From a virus, in the IMG/VR virus record IMGVR_UViG_3300021375_000025, positions 1 to 64,000 of that record: DNA of 64,000 nucleotides. One strand, written 5' to 3'. The translations under genes and the position numbers were made by a program. The notes under the pieces were generated by a model, which saw only the letters and a list, made by a program, of their open reading frames with translations, was not told the origin of the DNA and did not search any database. Shown piece after piece: positions 3,711 to 63,773 of the stretch (the first letter of the stretch is position 1; every line of letters starts with the position of its first letter).

Positions 3711-6700
3711 ATGGCAAAGCAACAAATTGATATCGGTATTGAAGGTAACGACGGTACAGGCGATAGTATCCGCGAGTCGTTTCGTAAAGTAAACGAAAAC
3801 TTCCAAGAACTATATGCTGTATTTGGTATTGGTGGACAGATATCCTTTACTGATCTTAATGACACGCCTAACACTTACGAAGGTAATGAAAATAAAGTTC
3901 CTTTAGTAAAATCAGACGGCAGTGGTATCAATTTACTTGAACTTGCTTCAGACAACAGTTTAGATGGTACGCCAGATACTATCGGCTTCGACTTTACTGT
4001 AGACGGTAAAGTAATTATCAAACAACTTGTTTCAAAAGTTTCTAATGACCCTGAGCCTATATTAGGCGGGCCTATGGATGCTGCTACACAGCCAATTGCT
4101 AACGTAAGTGTAACACAGGCTGCAATTGATACATTCAACTCAGTTCACGGCACTAATTTAACAACAGGTGCTCTTGTTATTGATAAAGCTTTTGCTGATA
4201 GAAATTACCAAGGAAAGGCAGTTGCAGGCGGCGGTATTAGATTAGGAGACGAACCGACTGATGCTTCAGGATATGTGTTTACTGCTTCAGGTTTTAGCTT
4301 AGGTAATTTAACTATTACTGCGCACGGACTAACAGAAGCATTTAACGGTGCTGCATTTATCTTTCGTTCAACAGGAACAGATCCTTTTGGTGTTGTAACA
4401 GGCAGCACATACTATATTAATGTAGTAGATCCAAATAATATTGCACTGTATCCTACTGAAGAACAAGCAGTTGAAAGAAATGGTAGAATTTTGCTAAGTG
4501 GCGGCACAGGCACATTTACTATTACTGATGCAGCATATAATGCTAATTTAAAAGGTAACTGGCTCAGCAATGTAGCTATTCCTCGCAAGAGCATTGTAAG
4601 ACGTCAAGGCGACGATATGACAGGTGCCCTAAACTTGTTTGATCATCCGGGCGAACTTGCAGGTACTGGCTTACCGAATGGTCCAGATGATTTACAAGCA
4701 GCAACTAAACTGTATGTAGATAATGCAGCAGCAGAAAGTCAAGTCAACTTATACGTTAGTACATCTGGCTCAGATCAACAAACATTTACTCCTGTAGGAA
4801 AAGAAGGACGAGCTCCAGCATATGCATATCGTACAATTAATGCCGCTGCTCGCAAAGCAGAAGAAATAATTATTGCTGCTCCGCCAGAACCAGGTCCGTA
4901 TATGCAGACAATGACATATGCAACAGGCGGCACAACAGCATTGACTAATACAGTTGGAATAGATAGTCCGATTGCTGATCGTGCAAATGCAAGAGCAATT
5001 ATTGTTGCTAACAAAGAATTTATTGCTAAAGAAGTTACGGGTTATGTTGATGCAACTTTTCCTAATTTTGCAGGAACTTACAGCTTAGAAATTTGTCAAC
5101 GTGATGTTGAATTTATTTTAGATAGCGTTAGTTTAGATGCACTGCTAGGTAACAATGCTAACTATCTATCACGTTGGGCCGGTATACGTTATTACTCAAA
5201 TGTAAGTGCGCAACGAGCAATTGGTGCGCAGAGGGTGGAAACTATTGCAGGTATTGAATATGCTAAAGAAATTGTTACACAGTATATTTTAACAAATACT
5301 CCTGTTCTTACAACATATCAAGACCGTGTATTACAAGTTACTAACTTACCATTACCAGATTCAAGTGCAGACGAAGCAATTGGTAACAAAATGGACATTA
5401 TCTTAGAAATTATTAACGATGGTGTATTAGATGCTCCGCAAATTGTTGATGGACAAACAACTTATAAAATTAATATTAACAACAGCGGACTTGGATTTAT
5501 CAATCAAGCTAACCCAGAAAACACAGATATTATTCCAGGTAAAGTTGTACGTGGTAAAAACTCAGGTGCTATTGGACGTATTATTGATTACAAATACGAA
5601 GCAGGTCCGAGAGCAGTTAGTGTAGTGGGCACTGACGAAATTGAAGTGCAGCTATTAGAGCCAGTTGAGTTTGTAGCAGGTGAACCATTAGAGTATGGCA
5701 ACTTTGTCCGTGAAACACAGATTTCCATTAGAGTTGAATCAGGTATTTACGAAGAGGACTATCCGATTCGTGTTCCGGCAAACGTAAGTGTAAAAGGCGA
5801 CGAATTTAGACGTTGTATTATCCGTCCAAAGAAACGTGTATCACAATCACGTTGGGCAAATACATTCTTCTATCGTGACGCAGAGTTTGACGGTCTTGTA
5901 CTCGGTAAATCAGATATTGAAGCAGTTGCATTTGACGCTCAGCCTAATGCATCACGAACTCCAGGCACATATTCAGTAAGTTTATGGTCTACAGATAAAT
6001 TCGGTAAAGATGCAGAATTTGATATTACTATCGATGGTTCTGGTGCAGTAACAGATATTGCAATTACTAATGCAGGTAAAGACTTCCAGCACGGCGAACG
6101 ACTAACTGTAAGTGACGATCAACTTGGTAGCGGAGGAGCTACTAGTGTCACATTTACTATTGCTAGTATTCCAAATGGTATTGAATACATAAATCCACTA
6201 ACAGGAAAAGCTGATGGATATTTTGGATATCACTATCTAACACAGCCTGAAAAACTTAAAAATACAGGTGCTGGTTATGAAAATGTAGGCAAGTGGGAAA
6301 CAAATGCACTTACACTAATTGACAACAGAGAATTTATTCAAGAGCAGGTTGTTAACTACATTGAAACAACATATCCTGCACTAGTAGGCTCTTACAGCAG
6401 AGCAAAATGTTTTAGAGACGTAGGTTTAATTGTTGATGCACTTGTAAAAGACTTCCGCAATGGTAGTAACGAGTTTTCACTAGAAGCACAAGGTGAATAC
6501 TATGCAGGTGCAGTGGAAGCAGGAACAGAAGATGAAACAGTTGCAGGTATACAACATATCTATACTATTGCAAGCAAATTAATAATTGGTGAAAATCCAA
6601 CTACGCTTTATAATCAAGCCGGTGGTGGCGCAGGCGACAGAATGTATGCAGCAGACTTGTTCAATGGTTCAGGAGAGCCAGCAGCATGGACAACTTCTCA

Positions 6701-59670: not shown

Positions 59671-60234
59671 ATGGAACATTTTGTAAGAATAGTAATGGAA
59701 AAGCAAGAAGGCGCTCAATTATTAGATGAGAGCGTTTTTGCAGAACAAGAAATTTACGAAACTGAACAAGGTGGAACTGTATTTCAAATTCCTCTACAAA
59801 GAGAATTGTCAGAAGACGAAGCAAACGAGTATGCTGAAAAATTAGCAAACTATATGTTTGAACAAGGCTACGAAGACTTTGATATTGAAATCAGTGCAGG
59901 TGATGCAGAAGTTGAAGAAGAAACATACGAAGGTGATGAGTTTTTTGAAAACTATGGCACTATGTGGTTCAATGAAGATGACGAAATTGATGAAGCAGAA
60001 TATCAAGGACGCAAAGTACCATTAGGCAAGCCTATGCGCGGCGATGTTAAAAAGTTTAAAGTGTACGTTAAGGATCCTAAGACCAAGAATGTTAAGAAAG
60101 TTAACTTTGGCGATCCTGACATGAAAATTAAAAAGTCTAATCCAGCACGTAGACGTAGTTTCCGTGCAAGACATAATTGTGATAATCCAGGACCGAGAAC
60201 CAAAGCTCGTTATTGGTCGTGCCGTAAGTGGTAA
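59671..60234 (+). CDS. Conserved T4-type marine phage protein with basic C-terminal domain (187 aa)
   Basis: First half acidic and helical (LSEDEANEYAEKLANYMFEQ, GDAEVEEETYEGDEFFENYG); second half a compact basic domain starting GRKVPLGKPMRGDVKKFKVY and ending RARHNCDNPGPRTKARYWSC then RKW. The latter block is strongly conserved in marine T4-type phages as I recall it and has two cysteines and many Arg/Lys, suggesting nucleic acid binding. A late box precedes it. Its N-terminus, MEHFVRIVMEK, resembles the short head-targeting type peptides seen in the following genes. Function not established. Confidence 0.7.
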   Translation: MEHFVRIVMEKQEGAQLLDESVFAEQEIYETEQGGTVFQIPLQRELSEDEANEYAEKLANYMFEQGYEDFDIEISAGDAEVEEETYEGDEFFENYGTMWFNEDDEIDEAEYQGRKVPLGKPMRGDVKKFKVYVKDPKTKNVKKVNFGDPDMKIKKSNPARRRSFRARHNCDNPGPRTKARYWSCRKW

Positions 60235-60243
60235 GGAACTAAA

Positions 60244-60573
60244 ATGAGAATAGATGAATTTGCACAACCAACAGACGACCGTTTACCATTTGACGTAGTA
60301 GATGACGTTGCTATCTTTATGCGCAACGATCCAATGTTTTATCGCAAGCAGTTATTTCCTGCTATTATGAACATGAAAGATCGTATTGACACCAACAAAA
60401 AGTGTGTTGCAGAAGAATGTTTAGGCGAAGTATGCGGTCGTGCTATGGAAACATATTGTAATAAGTTTAACTTAGGCAGTATGAAAAATGTATTCAAACC
60501 TGAAGACAAAGGATTGTTAATTAACAAAGTATTCGGCGAAGAAATGACACAGATACGCAATGGAGCGTACTAA
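60244..60573 (+). CDS. Conserved phage protein (109 aa)
   Basis: ATG 60244 after AAGGAACTAAA. Helical protein starting MRIDEFAQPTDDRLPFDVVD, with a mid-section KCVAEECLGEVCGRAMETYC containing four cysteines and an end EEMTQIRNGAY. The stop overlaps the next start (TAATG). No family name recognised. The N-terminal MRIDEFAQ is similar in form to T4 capsid-targeting peptides. Confidence 0.65.
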   Translation: MRIDEFAQPTDDRLPFDVVDDVAIFMRNDPMFYRKQLFPAIMNMKDRIDTNKKCVAEECLGEVCGRAMETYCNKFNLGSMKNVFKPEDKGLLINKVFGEEMTQIRNGAY

Positions 60574-61625
60574 TGTTATTAAGAGAATTATTTGAAGCAC
60601 CAGGAAAAACAGCAGTACTAGCATTTGGTAGATTAAATCCGCCAACAATAGGACACGCTAAACTTGTAGATAAGATTACTAGTATCGACGGCGATCATTA
60701 CCTTTTTTTATCTCAAACACAAAAACCTAAAACTGATCCTTTAGACTTTGCTACTAAAATGAAGTTAGCAAAGCAATTCTTTCCAGGCATTAACATTGGG
60801 CATCAGGCAGTACGTACACCTGTACAAGCATTAGAACAACTACAAAGTCTAGGCTATACTGACGTTATCTTTATTGCAGGTTCAGATCGTGTAGACGCTT
60901 TCCAAAAACTATTCGACACATACAACGGACAGACTGATAAAGCAGGTAATGTTCCTTTTAAATTTAATTCAATTAAAGTAGTAAGCGCAGGCGAGCGTGA
61001 TCCAGATGCAGATGGTGCAGAAGGTATGAGCGCAAGCAAAATGCGAGCAGCAGCCGCTGAAGGTAATCTAGAAGCATTTGCACAAGGTGTTCCAGATAAG
61101 AAACTTGCCAAGACTATGTATGATGCTGTACGCAAAGGTATGGGTGTTAAAGATGTTGTAGCAGCAGAAGACGTTAGCCCCGAAAATGAAAAGAAATTTC
61201 ACAACGAACTTGACGATTTAGTACACAAATACTTTGGTGATTCTCCTGACGAAGTGAAGATGAAAAAGAAAATGCGTAAAGTCAAAGAAGACGATCTTAA
61301 TGAAGCAGTGCCACTTGTAGCAGCAGCAATTTGGATTATTAAATGGGCTATTAGATACGGTGCATGGCCAGTAATCAAATGGTTACTAAAGAAACATGGT
61401 GGAAAAATTATAGGCGGCGCGGCAGCAGCATACTATATTGATCAAGGATGGGATTGGGTCAAAGACAAGATTGGTGCAGAATATGCACAGATGTTGATCG
61501 ATAACAAGTTCGAAATCGGTATGGCAGTTGCACTTATCATTGGTGCAGTTGCACTTAAAAAGTATATGGAAAAACAAGGCGATAAACTTGTTAAAGCAAA
61601 CGAATCATTAATGGCGAGATCGTAA
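60573..61625 (+). CDS. Cytidylyltransferase-like nucleotidyltransferase with membrane tail (350 aa)
   Basis: Residues 12-180 are a nucleotidyltransferase of the HxGH superfamily: FGRLNPPTIGHAKLV (T25-x-G27-H28 in place of HxGH), LFLSQTQKPKTDPLDFATKM, DVIFIAGSDRVDAFQKLF, and the second motif GMSASKMRAAAAEG. Such enzymes transfer a nucleotide to a phosphorylated substrate. From about residue 240 it has hydrophobic segments (PLVAAAIWIIKWAIRYGAWP and FEIGMAVALIIGAVALKKYM) that are probably membrane-inserted or buried. N-terminus MLLRELFEAP is targeting-peptide-like. Substrate unknown. Confidence 0.82.
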   Translation: MLLRELFEAPGKTAVLAFGRLNPPTIGHAKLVDKITSIDGDHYLFLSQTQKPKTDPLDFATKMKLAKQFFPGINIGHQAVRTPVQALEQLQSLGYTDVIFIAGSDRVDAFQKLFDTYNGQTDKAGNVPFKFNSIKVVSAGERDPDADGAEGMSASKMRAAAAEGNLEAFAQGVPDKKLAKTMYDAVRKGMGVKDVVAAEDVSPENEKKFHNELDDLVHKYFGDSPDEVKMKKKMRKVKEDDLNEAVPLVAAAIWIIKWAIRYGAWPVIKWLLKKHGGKIIGGAAAAYYIDQGWDWVKDKIGAEYAQMLIDNKFEIGMAVALIIGAVALKKYMEKQGDKLVKANESLMARS

Positions 61626-61846
61626 TGGATGAACTCGAGCGTATAAAGAAACTTGCAGGCGTAAACGAATTCAAAGGTTACACAGAGTATACTCTTGAGA
61701 ATATTAGTGACGCTGCTAATGCAAATGCTAAGAAGATGCGTAAAGATAATATCAAACCAGGCGACAAAGAATGGTTTGAATTATGGTTTGGATTGCCTAA
61801 GATGACAGGCGAGAATATGCCTAAAGGCTTTAGAGGACGCAAGTAA
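61625..61846 (+). CDS. Small conserved protein (73 aa)
   Basis: TAATG-coupled to the nucleotidyltransferase gene and to the next gene. Begins MDELERIKKLAGVNEFKGYT, a Lys/Leu helix; middle EWFELWFGLPKMTGENMPKG is Trp-rich, and the end is basic (FRGRK). The LERIKKLAG start is frequent in marine phage small proteins. Function unknown; the position suggests a head-assembly accessory protein. Confidence 0.65.
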   Translation: MDELERIKKLAGVNEFKGYTEYTLENISDAANANAKKMRKDNIKPGDKEWFELWFGLPKMTGENMPKGFRGRK

Positions 61847-62091
61847 TGGGTTTAAGAACTTGGTGGAAAAAAGTTTGGCGAGAAGAGTATGAGCTAATCA
61901 TAACTGTTCCCGGCGAAGTAACCATACACTCAGATGGTTCACGTACTGAAAAGAAAGCACAACAATTTTATCAAGCAAAAAAGATAGCAAAGGCTACTCC
62001 TAAGTATTTTTTATTTTACGACTTAGATGGCAAAAAGAATGAAATTAAATTTTTAAAACCTGTAGACTTTCATATAGTAAAGATTTGGTAG
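61846..62091 (+). CDS. Small conserved protein (81 aa)
   Basis: ATG overlaps the stop of the previous gene. Product MGLRTWWKKVWREEYELIIT has an amphipathic Trp/Lys/Arg N-terminus, then a small beta-rich domain (VPGEVTIHSDGSRTEKKAQQ, YFLFYDLDGKKNEIKFLKP). No enzyme motif. Probably part of the same late operon as its neighbours; not recognised. Confidence 0.65.
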   Translation: MGLRTWWKKVWREEYELIITVPGEVTIHSDGSRTEKKAQQFYQAKKIAKATPKYFLFYDLDGKKNEIKFLKPVDFHIVKIW

Positions 62092-62092
62092 T

Positions 62093-62728
62093 ATGCGTAT
62101 TAGAGACATCACAGAAGGCGTTGGACGCATCACTAAACAGAATCAAACTGTTGATGTCGGACCTGATGAAGTCACAAAACAAGCTGCTAAGTTTGGCAAT
62201 AAAGTAGACAAAGACGGACGTCCGCCTACTCTAAGCAAACGTGTAAAAGGTAAGTCAACTAATGTGTTGTTTAATCTAGGACTTGCTGAAGGTTACAAAC
62301 TACAATTAGAACGTGACAAAGAACTATTAGTATTACATATTAAAGATACTGCTACAGGCAAGCGTACAGAAGTACGTGGCAAGCCAGGTTATGAAACCGA
62401 CTATGATCCTAACGATAGTTTGCACATACTGTTAGACAAAGTAGGCAAGAGTGCTAACATCAGTGAACTAATGAATGGCGAAGTTGTAACTATTAATCCT
62501 AAACATCCTGATGCTGATCGTGCAAAAGCAGCAACAGATAAAGCATACAGTGAAAACTTTGCTGATGGTAAGAAAAAAGGCAAAAGCAGACCGGGTCGTG
62601 TAAAACGTAGTGGTGCTAGTTGCAATGGTAGTGTTACAGCACTACGCAAACGTGCTAAAAATGCAAGTGGTGAAAAGGCTAAAATGTATCACTGGTGCGC
62701 CAATATGAAGTCGGGGAAAAAGAAGTAA
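62093..62728 (+). CDS. Conserved phage protein with C-terminal GRVKRSGASC domain (211 aa)
   Basis: Starts MRIRDITEGVGRITKQNQTV. The middle is an alpha/beta domain (LFNLGLAEGYKLQLERDKEL, LLVLHIKDTATGKRTE). The last 50 residues, SRPGRVKRSGASCNGSVTAL then RKRAKNASGEKAKMYHWCAN, are a basic module common at the C-termini of marine T4-type phage proteins, likely DNA- or RNA-contacting. The N-terminal DITEG resembles a cleavable capsid-targeting peptide (I-T-E then G). It is TAATG-linked to the next gene. Confidence 0.7.
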   Translation: MRIRDITEGVGRITKQNQTVDVGPDEVTKQAAKFGNKVDKDGRPPTLSKRVKGKSTNVLFNLGLAEGYKLQLERDKELLVLHIKDTATGKRTEVRGKPGYETDYDPNDSLHILLDKVGKSANISELMNGEVVTINPKHPDADRAKAATDKAYSENFADGKKKGKSRPGRVKRSGASCNGSVTALRKRAKNASGEKAKMYHWCANMKSGKKK

Positions 62729-62928
62729 TGTTTAGTAAACAATGTAAACAACATTTAGAAGAACAAAACGAAACCGGCTTACAGCATATGCGAGCAGCTC
62801 TTTGGGTAGCACTACGTTTACAATTACTTGTACCAATGCTTATAATACATAGTATTGCTCCTCGATTCTTCACACACAAAGGATCACAAGTAATACAAGA
62901 CATATTAGACGACAGGAATGCAAAATGA
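62728..62928 (+). CDS. Small membrane-associated protein (DUF6356-like, 66 aa)
   Basis: ATG 62728 overlaps the preceding stop and is preferred over an upstream in-frame start at 62695. The sequence MFSKQCKQHLEEQNETGLQH then MRAALWVALRLQLLVPMLII matches the layout of DUF6356-type small proteins: a charged start, a helix with a hydrophobic stretch, and a HSIAPRFF end segment. One membrane span is likely. Function unknown. Its stop overlaps the next start. Confidence 0.7.
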   Translation: MFSKQCKQHLEEQNETGLQHMRAALWVALRLQLLVPMLIIHSIAPRFFTHKGSQVIQDILDDRNAK

Positions 62929-63104
62929 AAATGAACGAAATAGTGGAAACAACTAGTGCAGGCGCAGTAGCAAGTGTAGCAACACCCGTCGGCGGATTAG
63001 TTGCAAGACAACCTAAAAATGCAGACGGCACTGCTAAGAATGGTGTAGATAGTGATAACCTATTTGGCAACAAGAAAAAGAAGCCTAAGCGTAATAAAGC
63101 ATAA
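62925..63104 (+). CDS. Small late protein (59 aa) with targeting-peptide-like start
   Basis: ATG 62925 (AAAATGAAAATG) overlaps the previous stop. The product is MKMNEIVETTSAGAVASVAT, then PVGGLVARQPKNADGTAKNG and a Lys/Asn-rich basic tail (NKKKKPKRNKA). The IVE-T junction near residue 8 fits a phage head protease site of the (L/I)-x-E type. The basic tail could bind DNA in the capsid. A CATAAATA late-type box overlaps its stop. Confidence 0.6.
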   Translation: MKMNEIVETTSAGAVASVATPVGGLVARQPKNADGTAKNGVDSDNLFGNKKKKPKRNKA

Positions 63105-63107
63105 ATA
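63100..63107 (+). promoter_or_regulatory. Late-type box CATAAATA
   Basis: Overlaps the stop codon of the 59-aa gene, 27 bp before ATG 63135. A short palindrome AATACGTATT (63115-63124) follows downstream. Confidence 0.55.
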
Positions 63108-63134
63108 CTACATAATACGTATTGGAGTTCCTCA

Positions 63135-63773
63135 ATGAGAGAAAAAGAATTTAAAGAAGGTTTAGGCGATTTAGCACACGCTGCCGAACGTGACCATGAA
63201 GTACAAATGGCTCGTGCTGAACTATACAAACTAGCAAAGTATGCTATCAAACTACACGACATGCTCAAAGGCATCAGTGAAGCTGAAGGCTTAGAAGGTT
63301 GGGTACAAAGTAAAATTACTAAATCAGCAGACATGATCGGTAGTGTTTATCACCACCTAGACTATCAAGAAAGTCCTATGGGCGAAGTTACTGAAGCTAA
63401 GGATACGCATTGTTCAGACAAATGCTGCGGTAGTGATGTAAAAGCAGAAGATTGCACATGTCCTCCAACTTGTAAGCATTGTAACTGTAATGCTGTTGCA
63501 GAAGGCAAGTACAAGAATGATGCACAGCGCAAAGCTATACATGCTAATAAAAAGAAAACTGAAAGCCTACAAGATCGCCTAGCAGCAAAACTATCTGAAA
63601 AGTCAGTTTCAAAAGCACAACAACAAGCAGCTGGTATTGCACTAGCAGCTAAAGAAAAAGGTAAAACACCTAAAGGTAAAGGTGCAGCAGCACAGATGGC
63701 AAAAATGTCTAAAGCAGATCTAAAAGACTTTGCAGGCACTAAGCACAAAGGCTTACCTAAGCACAAAAAATAA
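63135..63773 (+). CDS. Conserved late protein with cysteine cluster and basic tail (212 aa)
   Basis: Three parts: a helical N-terminal domain (AERDHEVQMARAELYKLAKY, LEGWVQSKITKSADMIGSVY), a cysteine-rich centre (CSDKCCGSDVKAEDCTCPPT then CKHCNCN) that should bind zinc, and a Lys/Ala-rich helical tail (SKAQQQAAGIALAAKEKGKT and KHKGLPKHKK). Such Lys/Ala tails are found in prohead core and DNA-packaging proteins. Starts MREKEFKEGLGDL. A late box lies 27 bp upstream. Function unknown; a prohead core or DNA-condensing role would fit. Confidence 0.65.
   Translation: MREKEFKEGLGDLAHAAERDHEVQMARAELYKLAKYAIKLHDMLKGISEAEGLEGWVQSKITKSADMIGSVYHHLDYQESPMGEVTEAKDTHCSDKCCGSDVKAEDCTCPPTCKHCNCNAVAEGKYKNDAQRKAIHANKKKTESLQDRLAAKLSEKSVSKAQQQAAGIALAAKEKGKTPKGKGAAAQMAKMSKADLKDFAGTKHKGLPKHKK

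Follow-up and report, generated by a model that had tools for sequence, protein, structure and literature searches.

Probable short capsid-targeting propeptides on unrelated genes at a nucleotidyltransferase locus of a T4-like marine virus

Introduction

Why several neighbouring and otherwise unrelated genes of one virus should begin with nearly the same short peptide is the question raised by the right end of a 64,000-base stretch of DNA (the window; bases 1–64000 of the 69,507-base virus fragment IMGVR_UViG_3300021375_000025), where a nucleotidyltransferase locus is situated, with a DNA polymerase further on in the remainder of the record. The locus plan and its relatives match T4-like marine myoviruses. 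A preliminary description of the window had proposed that consecutive genes share an N-terminal peptide resembling the capsid-targeting sequences of phage T4, by which proteins are packaged in the head; that a short N-terminal peptide can target proteins to the capsid is already known from T4. The starts of genes 60573, 62093, 62925 and 63135 (genes are named by their first position) are very probably short capsid-targeting propeptides of the T4 kind, acting by the mechanism proposed below. The genes and peptides concerned are as follows, / marking the predicted cut.

60244..60573, + strand, gene with the similar start MRIDEFAQP, cut position lacking Glu; weak member, probably no substrate
60573..61625, + strand, nucleotidyltransferase, NadD/CoaD-like fold, MLLRELFE/A, with a hydrophobic C-terminal module behind L-N-E/A
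60573..60596, + strand, capsid-targeting-like peptide MLLRELFE
62093..62728, + strand, basic protein with C-terminal Cys motif, peptide MRIRDITE/G (from orthologue comparison)
62093..62116, + strand, capsid-targeting-like peptide MRIRDITE
62925..63104, + strand, 59-residue basic protein, MKMNEIVE/T, of a family that copies the mature capsid-protein N-terminus, the arm being shortened here
62925..62948, + strand, capsid-targeting-like peptide MKMNEIVE
63135..63773, + strand, zinc-cluster protein with C-terminal DUF3008, peptide MREKEFKE/G
63135..63158, + strand, capsid-targeting-like peptide MREKEFKE

The shared start and its excess over chance

The five starts at 60244 (MRIDEFAQP), 60573 (MLLRELFEAP), 62093 (MRIRDITEGV), 62925 (MKMNEIVETT) and 63135 (MREKEFKEGL) were confirmed as ATG open reading frames (ORFs) spanning 60244–63773. 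All are opened by the pattern M-(R/K/L)-x-x-(E/D)-(hydrophobic), and four of the five also read (hydrophobic)-x-E at residues 6–8. Contrary to the preliminary description, the genes are not strictly consecutive: 61625 (MDELERIKKLAGVNE) and 61846 (MGLRTWWKK) intervene without the shared start, and gene 59671, the first of the interval, starts MEHFVRIVMEK. The suggested (L/I)-x-E cut rule was followed strictly by three window genes (60573, LFE; 62093, ITE; 62925, IVE), gene 63135 reads F-K-E at this position, and gene 60244 fails the rule.

The strict motif M[KRL]xx[ED][LIFV]xE, defined only after the starts had been seen, was found at 4 of 63 ORF starts of this virus but at none of its 284 internal Met (P = 8e-5). 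A search for the same starts in relatives, covering 67 IMG/VR loci that carry a related nucleotidyltransferase, gave 69 distinct 13-residue starts matching a somewhat wider motif, the internal-Met rate leading one to expect 2.6; many of the starts found are mutually orthologous, and they represent about eight unrelated families with nothing else in common. Carriers include the nucleotidyltransferase (MLLRELFEA), the basic Cys protein (MRIRDITEG or MKLNDLLED), a small protein (MRLRELIET), the zinc-cluster/DUF3008 protein (MRKQEIEEG) and others, e.g. MKVEDLVEAP. When the motif was loosened to any [LIFV]xE among the first residues, little or no excess over chance was seen, and therefore register-specific forms alone were used.

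The start is kept in orthologues of the nucleotidyltransferase: in a 12-sequence alignment Glu8 is invariant, like the active-site residues G27 and H28, and Leu6 is encoded by five different codons among orthologues. Because synonymous codons at the fixed residues vary freely, selection is acting on the peptide at the protein level. Likeness of the starts through constraints of translation initiation or codon use, or through chance, could draw on the AAA and AGA second codons that are frequent at phage gene starts. It is highly improbable, given this conservation as protein, the position-specific hydrophobic and Glu residues, the 26-fold excess over internal Met and the link to virion detection given below.

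T4-register peptides at homologous loci

In T4, residues 4 and 7 serve targeting and residues 8 and 10 processing, and gp21 cuts after L/I-x-E (PMC9026906). Genes near the homologous enzyme in the cyanophages P-SSM4 and S-RIM14, the methylophage Melnitz and phage C48C1 have starts that share the register of the T4 ipII/ipIII start MKTYQEFIAEA (MKKFSAFLKEA, MKKFSTFISEA, MLSFKAYLAEK, MLSFKQFVSEV, MITFKKYLEEK, MKKFKQYIDEG, MQGFKTFLSEA), and pelagiphage HTVC008M has looser starts, e.g. MKTFTDFSTD. A DNA pattern for the four T4 residues gave 18 hits in eight phage genomes versus 3 in the reversed control; its T4 hits were ipII, ipIII and the hypothetical gene 61.1, and no others.

The window starts could alternatively be N-terminal helices that dock their proteins to another partner, e.g. 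a membrane or host protein, the x-E site being incidental. The aromatic targeting residues of T4 are absent from the window form and the N-terminal segment is modelled as a short helix (in the nucleotidyltransferase model a low-confidence helix at residues 2–8, the fold beginning at residue 13), as such a tag would have it. It is nevertheless improbable, since the homologous locus and enzyme bear T4-register peptides in cyanophages, Glu precedes the predicted cut in nearly all members, and relatives of 62925, from this residue onward, match the cut site of the capsid protein.

Link to virion proteomes

For cyanophage S-CREM2, ORFs were sorted by the published virion proteome (PMC10665884). A protein pattern derived from T4 and the homologous-locus starts, yet formulated only once the S-CREM2 starts were known, fell on 4 of 50 virion-detected ORFs versus 0 of 180 others (P = 0.002), or 3 of 50 versus 0 of 165 (P = 0.012) with longest starts and without alternative starts. 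The four matches are an S-adenosylmethionine (SAM) hydrolase (MKDFDSFLEE), a kinase (VKRFDAFLTE), a cytidylyltransferase (MKNFSSFLTE) and gp136 (MQTFSMFFSE). Near misses were gp13 (MKDLHSFLTE) and a Cas9-like gene with SFMAEAA at residues 21–27 of the annotated protein. The latter (OR473000, 7704–10313; "CRISPR-associated endonuclease Cas9-like"), itself in the virion proteome, carries LRFASFMAEAA behind a 16-residue leader, and the gene may truly begin at this targeting-like site.

Homologous nucleotidyltransferases are listed as virion-detected for S-CREM2 (gp154, MKNFSSFLTEA; PMC10665884), S-SZBM1 (S-SZBM1_140, MRFRQFIIEAV; PMC9146016) and S-SCSM1 (S-SCSM1_91, NMNAT-like, MKSFLQFLKEA; PMC9602691). 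A targeting peptide is nowhere named in the available text of these cyanophage virion papers.

Protease and cut sites

The gp21-type protease (PF03420) was found in the relatives that have head genes (G009, G010, G011, G016–G018) and in every Kyanoviridae member tested; the 69.5-kb fragment, which has no head genes, gave no match. At the predicted cut, each of 79 capsid proteins from the clade has L-x-E before S, T or A (P3 Leu, P1 Glu). The first gene of the interval contains a further predicted site:

59671..60234, + strand, HVA1-like protein, acidic propeptide followed by a basic mature domain, with which short forms in phages without gp21 begin
59983..59994, + strand, predicted cleavage site E-I-D-E, residues 105–108, ahead of the mature HVA1-like domain

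The propeptide of gene 59671 comprises residues 1–108 (net charge −31), the predicted cut reads E-I-D-E/A-E-Y-Q-G, and the basic mature domain has 79 residues (net +19); the general form of the site is (I/L/V/M)-x-E ahead of AEYQG and the 79-residue basic domain. The HVA1-like form with extra N-terminal sequence occurs in C48C1, HTVC008M, Melnitz and Immuto, where the protease is present. No protease was seen in Aegir, CRP-901, CRP-3 and HTVC111P, which have the mature HVA1 domain alone, from M-A-K-Y-Q-G or nearby; CRP-6, likewise without a protease match, has merely a short leader ahead of the domain. This length switch tied to the protease amounts to a natural experiment that supports predicted cutting. 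Gene 59671 joins the set via its internal site, not via its start.

Interpretation and proposed mechanism

As a prediction from sequence comparison, capsid targeting with cleavage is well supported, because T4-register peptides are syntenic in cyanophages, relatives possess gp21, capsid proteins carry L-x-E, the HVA1 form switches with the protease, and the cyanophage virion proteomes contain such proteins. The peptide would dock its protein on the prohead scaffold core during assembly; the gp21-type protease would then cut after (L/I/F)-x-E at residue 8, and would process gene 59671 at its internal site. The mature basic protein or enzyme would stay with the DNA inside the head, and some or all of this cargo would be delivered into the host at infection.

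Several points weigh against this interpretation. L/I-x-E is a short signal, arising at 0.8% per residue by frequency, and the window peptides carry hydrophobic residues 3 and 6, without the aromatic residues 4 and 7 that target in T4. In the MRIDEF family the cleavage rule fails, because Glu8 is nearly always absent (MRIDEFAK, MKIDEFTQ, MRIEEFSK, MKINEFAT and others); the single readable variant with Glu at position 8 is MKLFELAEK (L029 and one other), and the MRIDEFAQP gene is, judged by these starts, probably not a substrate. The virus record is itself a fragment without head genes. The S-CREM2 enrichment, besides the order in which its pattern was written, depends on just four proteins, and most S-CREM2 virion proteins, several hypothetical ones included, have no such peptide. 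S-SZBM1 by itself showed no enrichment (1 of 27 versus 2 of 202). Finally, the cyanophage authors considered their virion enzymes as possibly co-purified contaminants (PMC10665884, PMC9602691).

The propeptides may also be cut by the prohead protease from proteins that are parts of the scaffold core or head structure, retained or degraded and not injected as effectors. This is possible though doubtful. T4 gp22, gp67 and gp68 largely disappear after being cut (PMC9026906), the acidic propeptide of gene 59671 is long, and relatives of 62925 copy the capsid-protein arm, suggesting shell binding, all of which would suit a structural role; the nucleotidyltransferase, however, retains its fold and active-site motifs and is present in virions of three cyanophages.

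Comparison with known systems and significance

Under the reading as targeting propeptides, the closest model is the peptide of T4 IPII and IPIII (MKTYQEFIAE/A), which is likewise N-terminal, borne by unrelated proteins, marked by (L/I)-x-E before a small residue and, as among the relatives of this virus, found in phages with a gp21-type protease. The claimed resemblance to T4 stands for position, cut rule and the protease of relatives, and falls short in that the window peptide is two residues shorter, with hydrophobic 3 and 6 replacing aromatic 4 and 7; the window form is moreover borne by enzymes and multi-module proteins. Because length and targeting residues differ, it is best taken as a variant working like the T4 sequence, not as a proven member. 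T4 Alt (MELITE...) and gp24 (MAKINELLRES), annotated or described as gp21 substrates, most resemble peptides of the window form (MRIRDITE, MKINELLGE). Unlike the window proteins gp24 is a shell protein, and the likeness of the Alt and gp24 starts comes without shown common descent.

The enzymes S-CREM2 gp154, S-SZBM1_140 and S-SCSM1_91, of a family homologous to gene 60573, differ in that their peptide is in T4 register or one residue shorter. Head proteins of the giant phages phiKZ and SPN3US offer a parallel in head packaging and in maturation by a gp21-like protease, whereas the phiKZ cut motif S/A-x-E differs from that of the window (PMC9026906). No report of capsid-targeting peptides in cyanophages was found in the literature searched, which included few subscription journals.

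With a sequence rule by which head-packaged proteins of T4-like marine phages can be recognised, dozens of hypothetical genes, together with enzymes currently called auxiliary metabolic genes, would become testable as injected effectors. Such a rule offers an explanation for the nucleotidyltransferases, SAM hydrolase and kinase-like protein in cyanophage virions, for which the authors left contamination open.

Capsid-arm copies

From the predicted Glu onward, relatives of 62925 read E/TATAGGTSAGAIATVAN or E/TASAGATSAGSVAAVAN, and the capsid protein reads E/TATAGATSAGNVATLNR; in a ranking of the 926 ORFs of four genomes, these relatives come directly behind the capsid proteins. Ten genomes were scanned without bias for genes that copy the capsid arm of the same phage, and in six of them the copy gene led by a large margin (score of the copy versus next best: T4 gp61.1, 69 vs 39; P-SSM4_163, 91 vs 45; S-RIM14_182, 106 vs 51; S-CREM2 gp160, 95 vs 49; G009, 54 vs 39; G010, 49 vs 37). 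The copy is clear also in relative G004, besides G009 and G010. Arm copies were not found in Melnitz, C48C1 and S-SZBM1, and were weak in HTVC008M.

T4 gp61.1 reads MKTFKEFIKE/DMVAGDSGGNPENISIGTTSGAVVNKGP, compared with E/AEIGGDHGYNATNIAAGQTSGAVTQIGP in gp23. The gene itself (NC_000866, 18966–19130; L226:967–1131) is annotated as hypothetical and combines a capsid-targeting-like start with the copy of the mature gp23 N-terminus. The distance from the cut is preserved in the copies of T4, G009 and G010, and in P-SSM4 too if MNE is the site; a full targeting peptide is missing from P-SSM4_163, S-RIM14_182 and S-CREM2 gp160, the last of which is among the virion-detected proteins (PMC10665884). 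Relatives of gp61.1 occur in 1386 phage records, some labelled major capsid protein, and in some phages of the T4 group the arm module follows L-F-E or M-L-E within a different protein.

In comparisons across phage families the own capsid gave the best score for 6 of 7 copies, compared with just 3 of 6 inside the T4 group. In window gene 62925 the arm is shortened; its score was reached by 44 of 3000 shuffles and is unconvincing against capsid arms alone. On balance these data favour, with some reserve, a conserved and so far unrecognised class of head-targeted proteins in T4-like phages, in which the phage's own mature major-capsid arm is copied from the cut onward and followed by a basic tail; T4 gp61.1, P-SSM4_163, S-RIM14_182, virion-detected S-CREM2 gp160 and the 62925 family would be its examples, with the same reserve. 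The copies may bind to the inner shell at the site for the arm and thereby tether a basic tail, or a protein cargo, to the wall of the capsid. For the conserved gene 61.1 of the model phage T4 they provide a testable hypothesis of function; none was reported for gp61.1 in the literature searched, few subscription journals being among it.

As a separate observation, three ORFs of 111–112 residues (L014, L029, L034) consist of a zinc-cluster segment followed by V-A-E/SATAGASSAGS or similar, i.e. an arm copy inside a longer protein.

Individual cargo genes and neighbouring regions

Two further features lie at or beside the nucleotidyltransferase gene:

61293..61304, + strand, second predicted cut D-L-N-E/AVPLVAAAIW, ahead of the C-terminal hydrophobic module
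61625..61846, + strand, 73-residue protein MDELERIKKLAGVNE/F, candidate substrate only; V-N-E in most orthologues

A fold search with the nucleotidyltransferase model gave NadD and CoaD adenylyltransferases as the best solved matches; searching solved structures by sequence yielded no useful match. Cyanophage authors have suggested that the enzyme takes part in NAD supply (PMC9602691). The hydrophobic module behind L-N-E/A is present in this virus and in L049, L050 and L060, the upstream sequence otherwise differing, and the chain looks as if several products were released from it. In relatives (L054:5983–7923, L044, L061, L035:6001–9687) the nucleotidyltransferase forms fusions with the C-terminal Cys module known from the 62093 protein or with other modules, such chains reaching 1228 residues.

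Orthologues of 62093 start MKVNELLE/AVGRI, MKLNDLLE/DGRIV and MKVYEILNE/DGRIV; tblastn with the 62093 protein gave no relative in the phage collection. Most 63135 orthologues retain (hydrophobic)-x-E/G-L, the upstream length varying.

Two proteins encoded beside the head genes of G009 (C1:107636–109792, 718 residues; 109803–110318, 171 residues) start MKLNEVITSK and MKINQIVTETT, respectively; they have no PHROG match and are candidate head cargo. Upstream of the locus, much of window positions 3711–59633 is filled by very long repetitive tail-fibre-like ORFs of up to 2601 residues.

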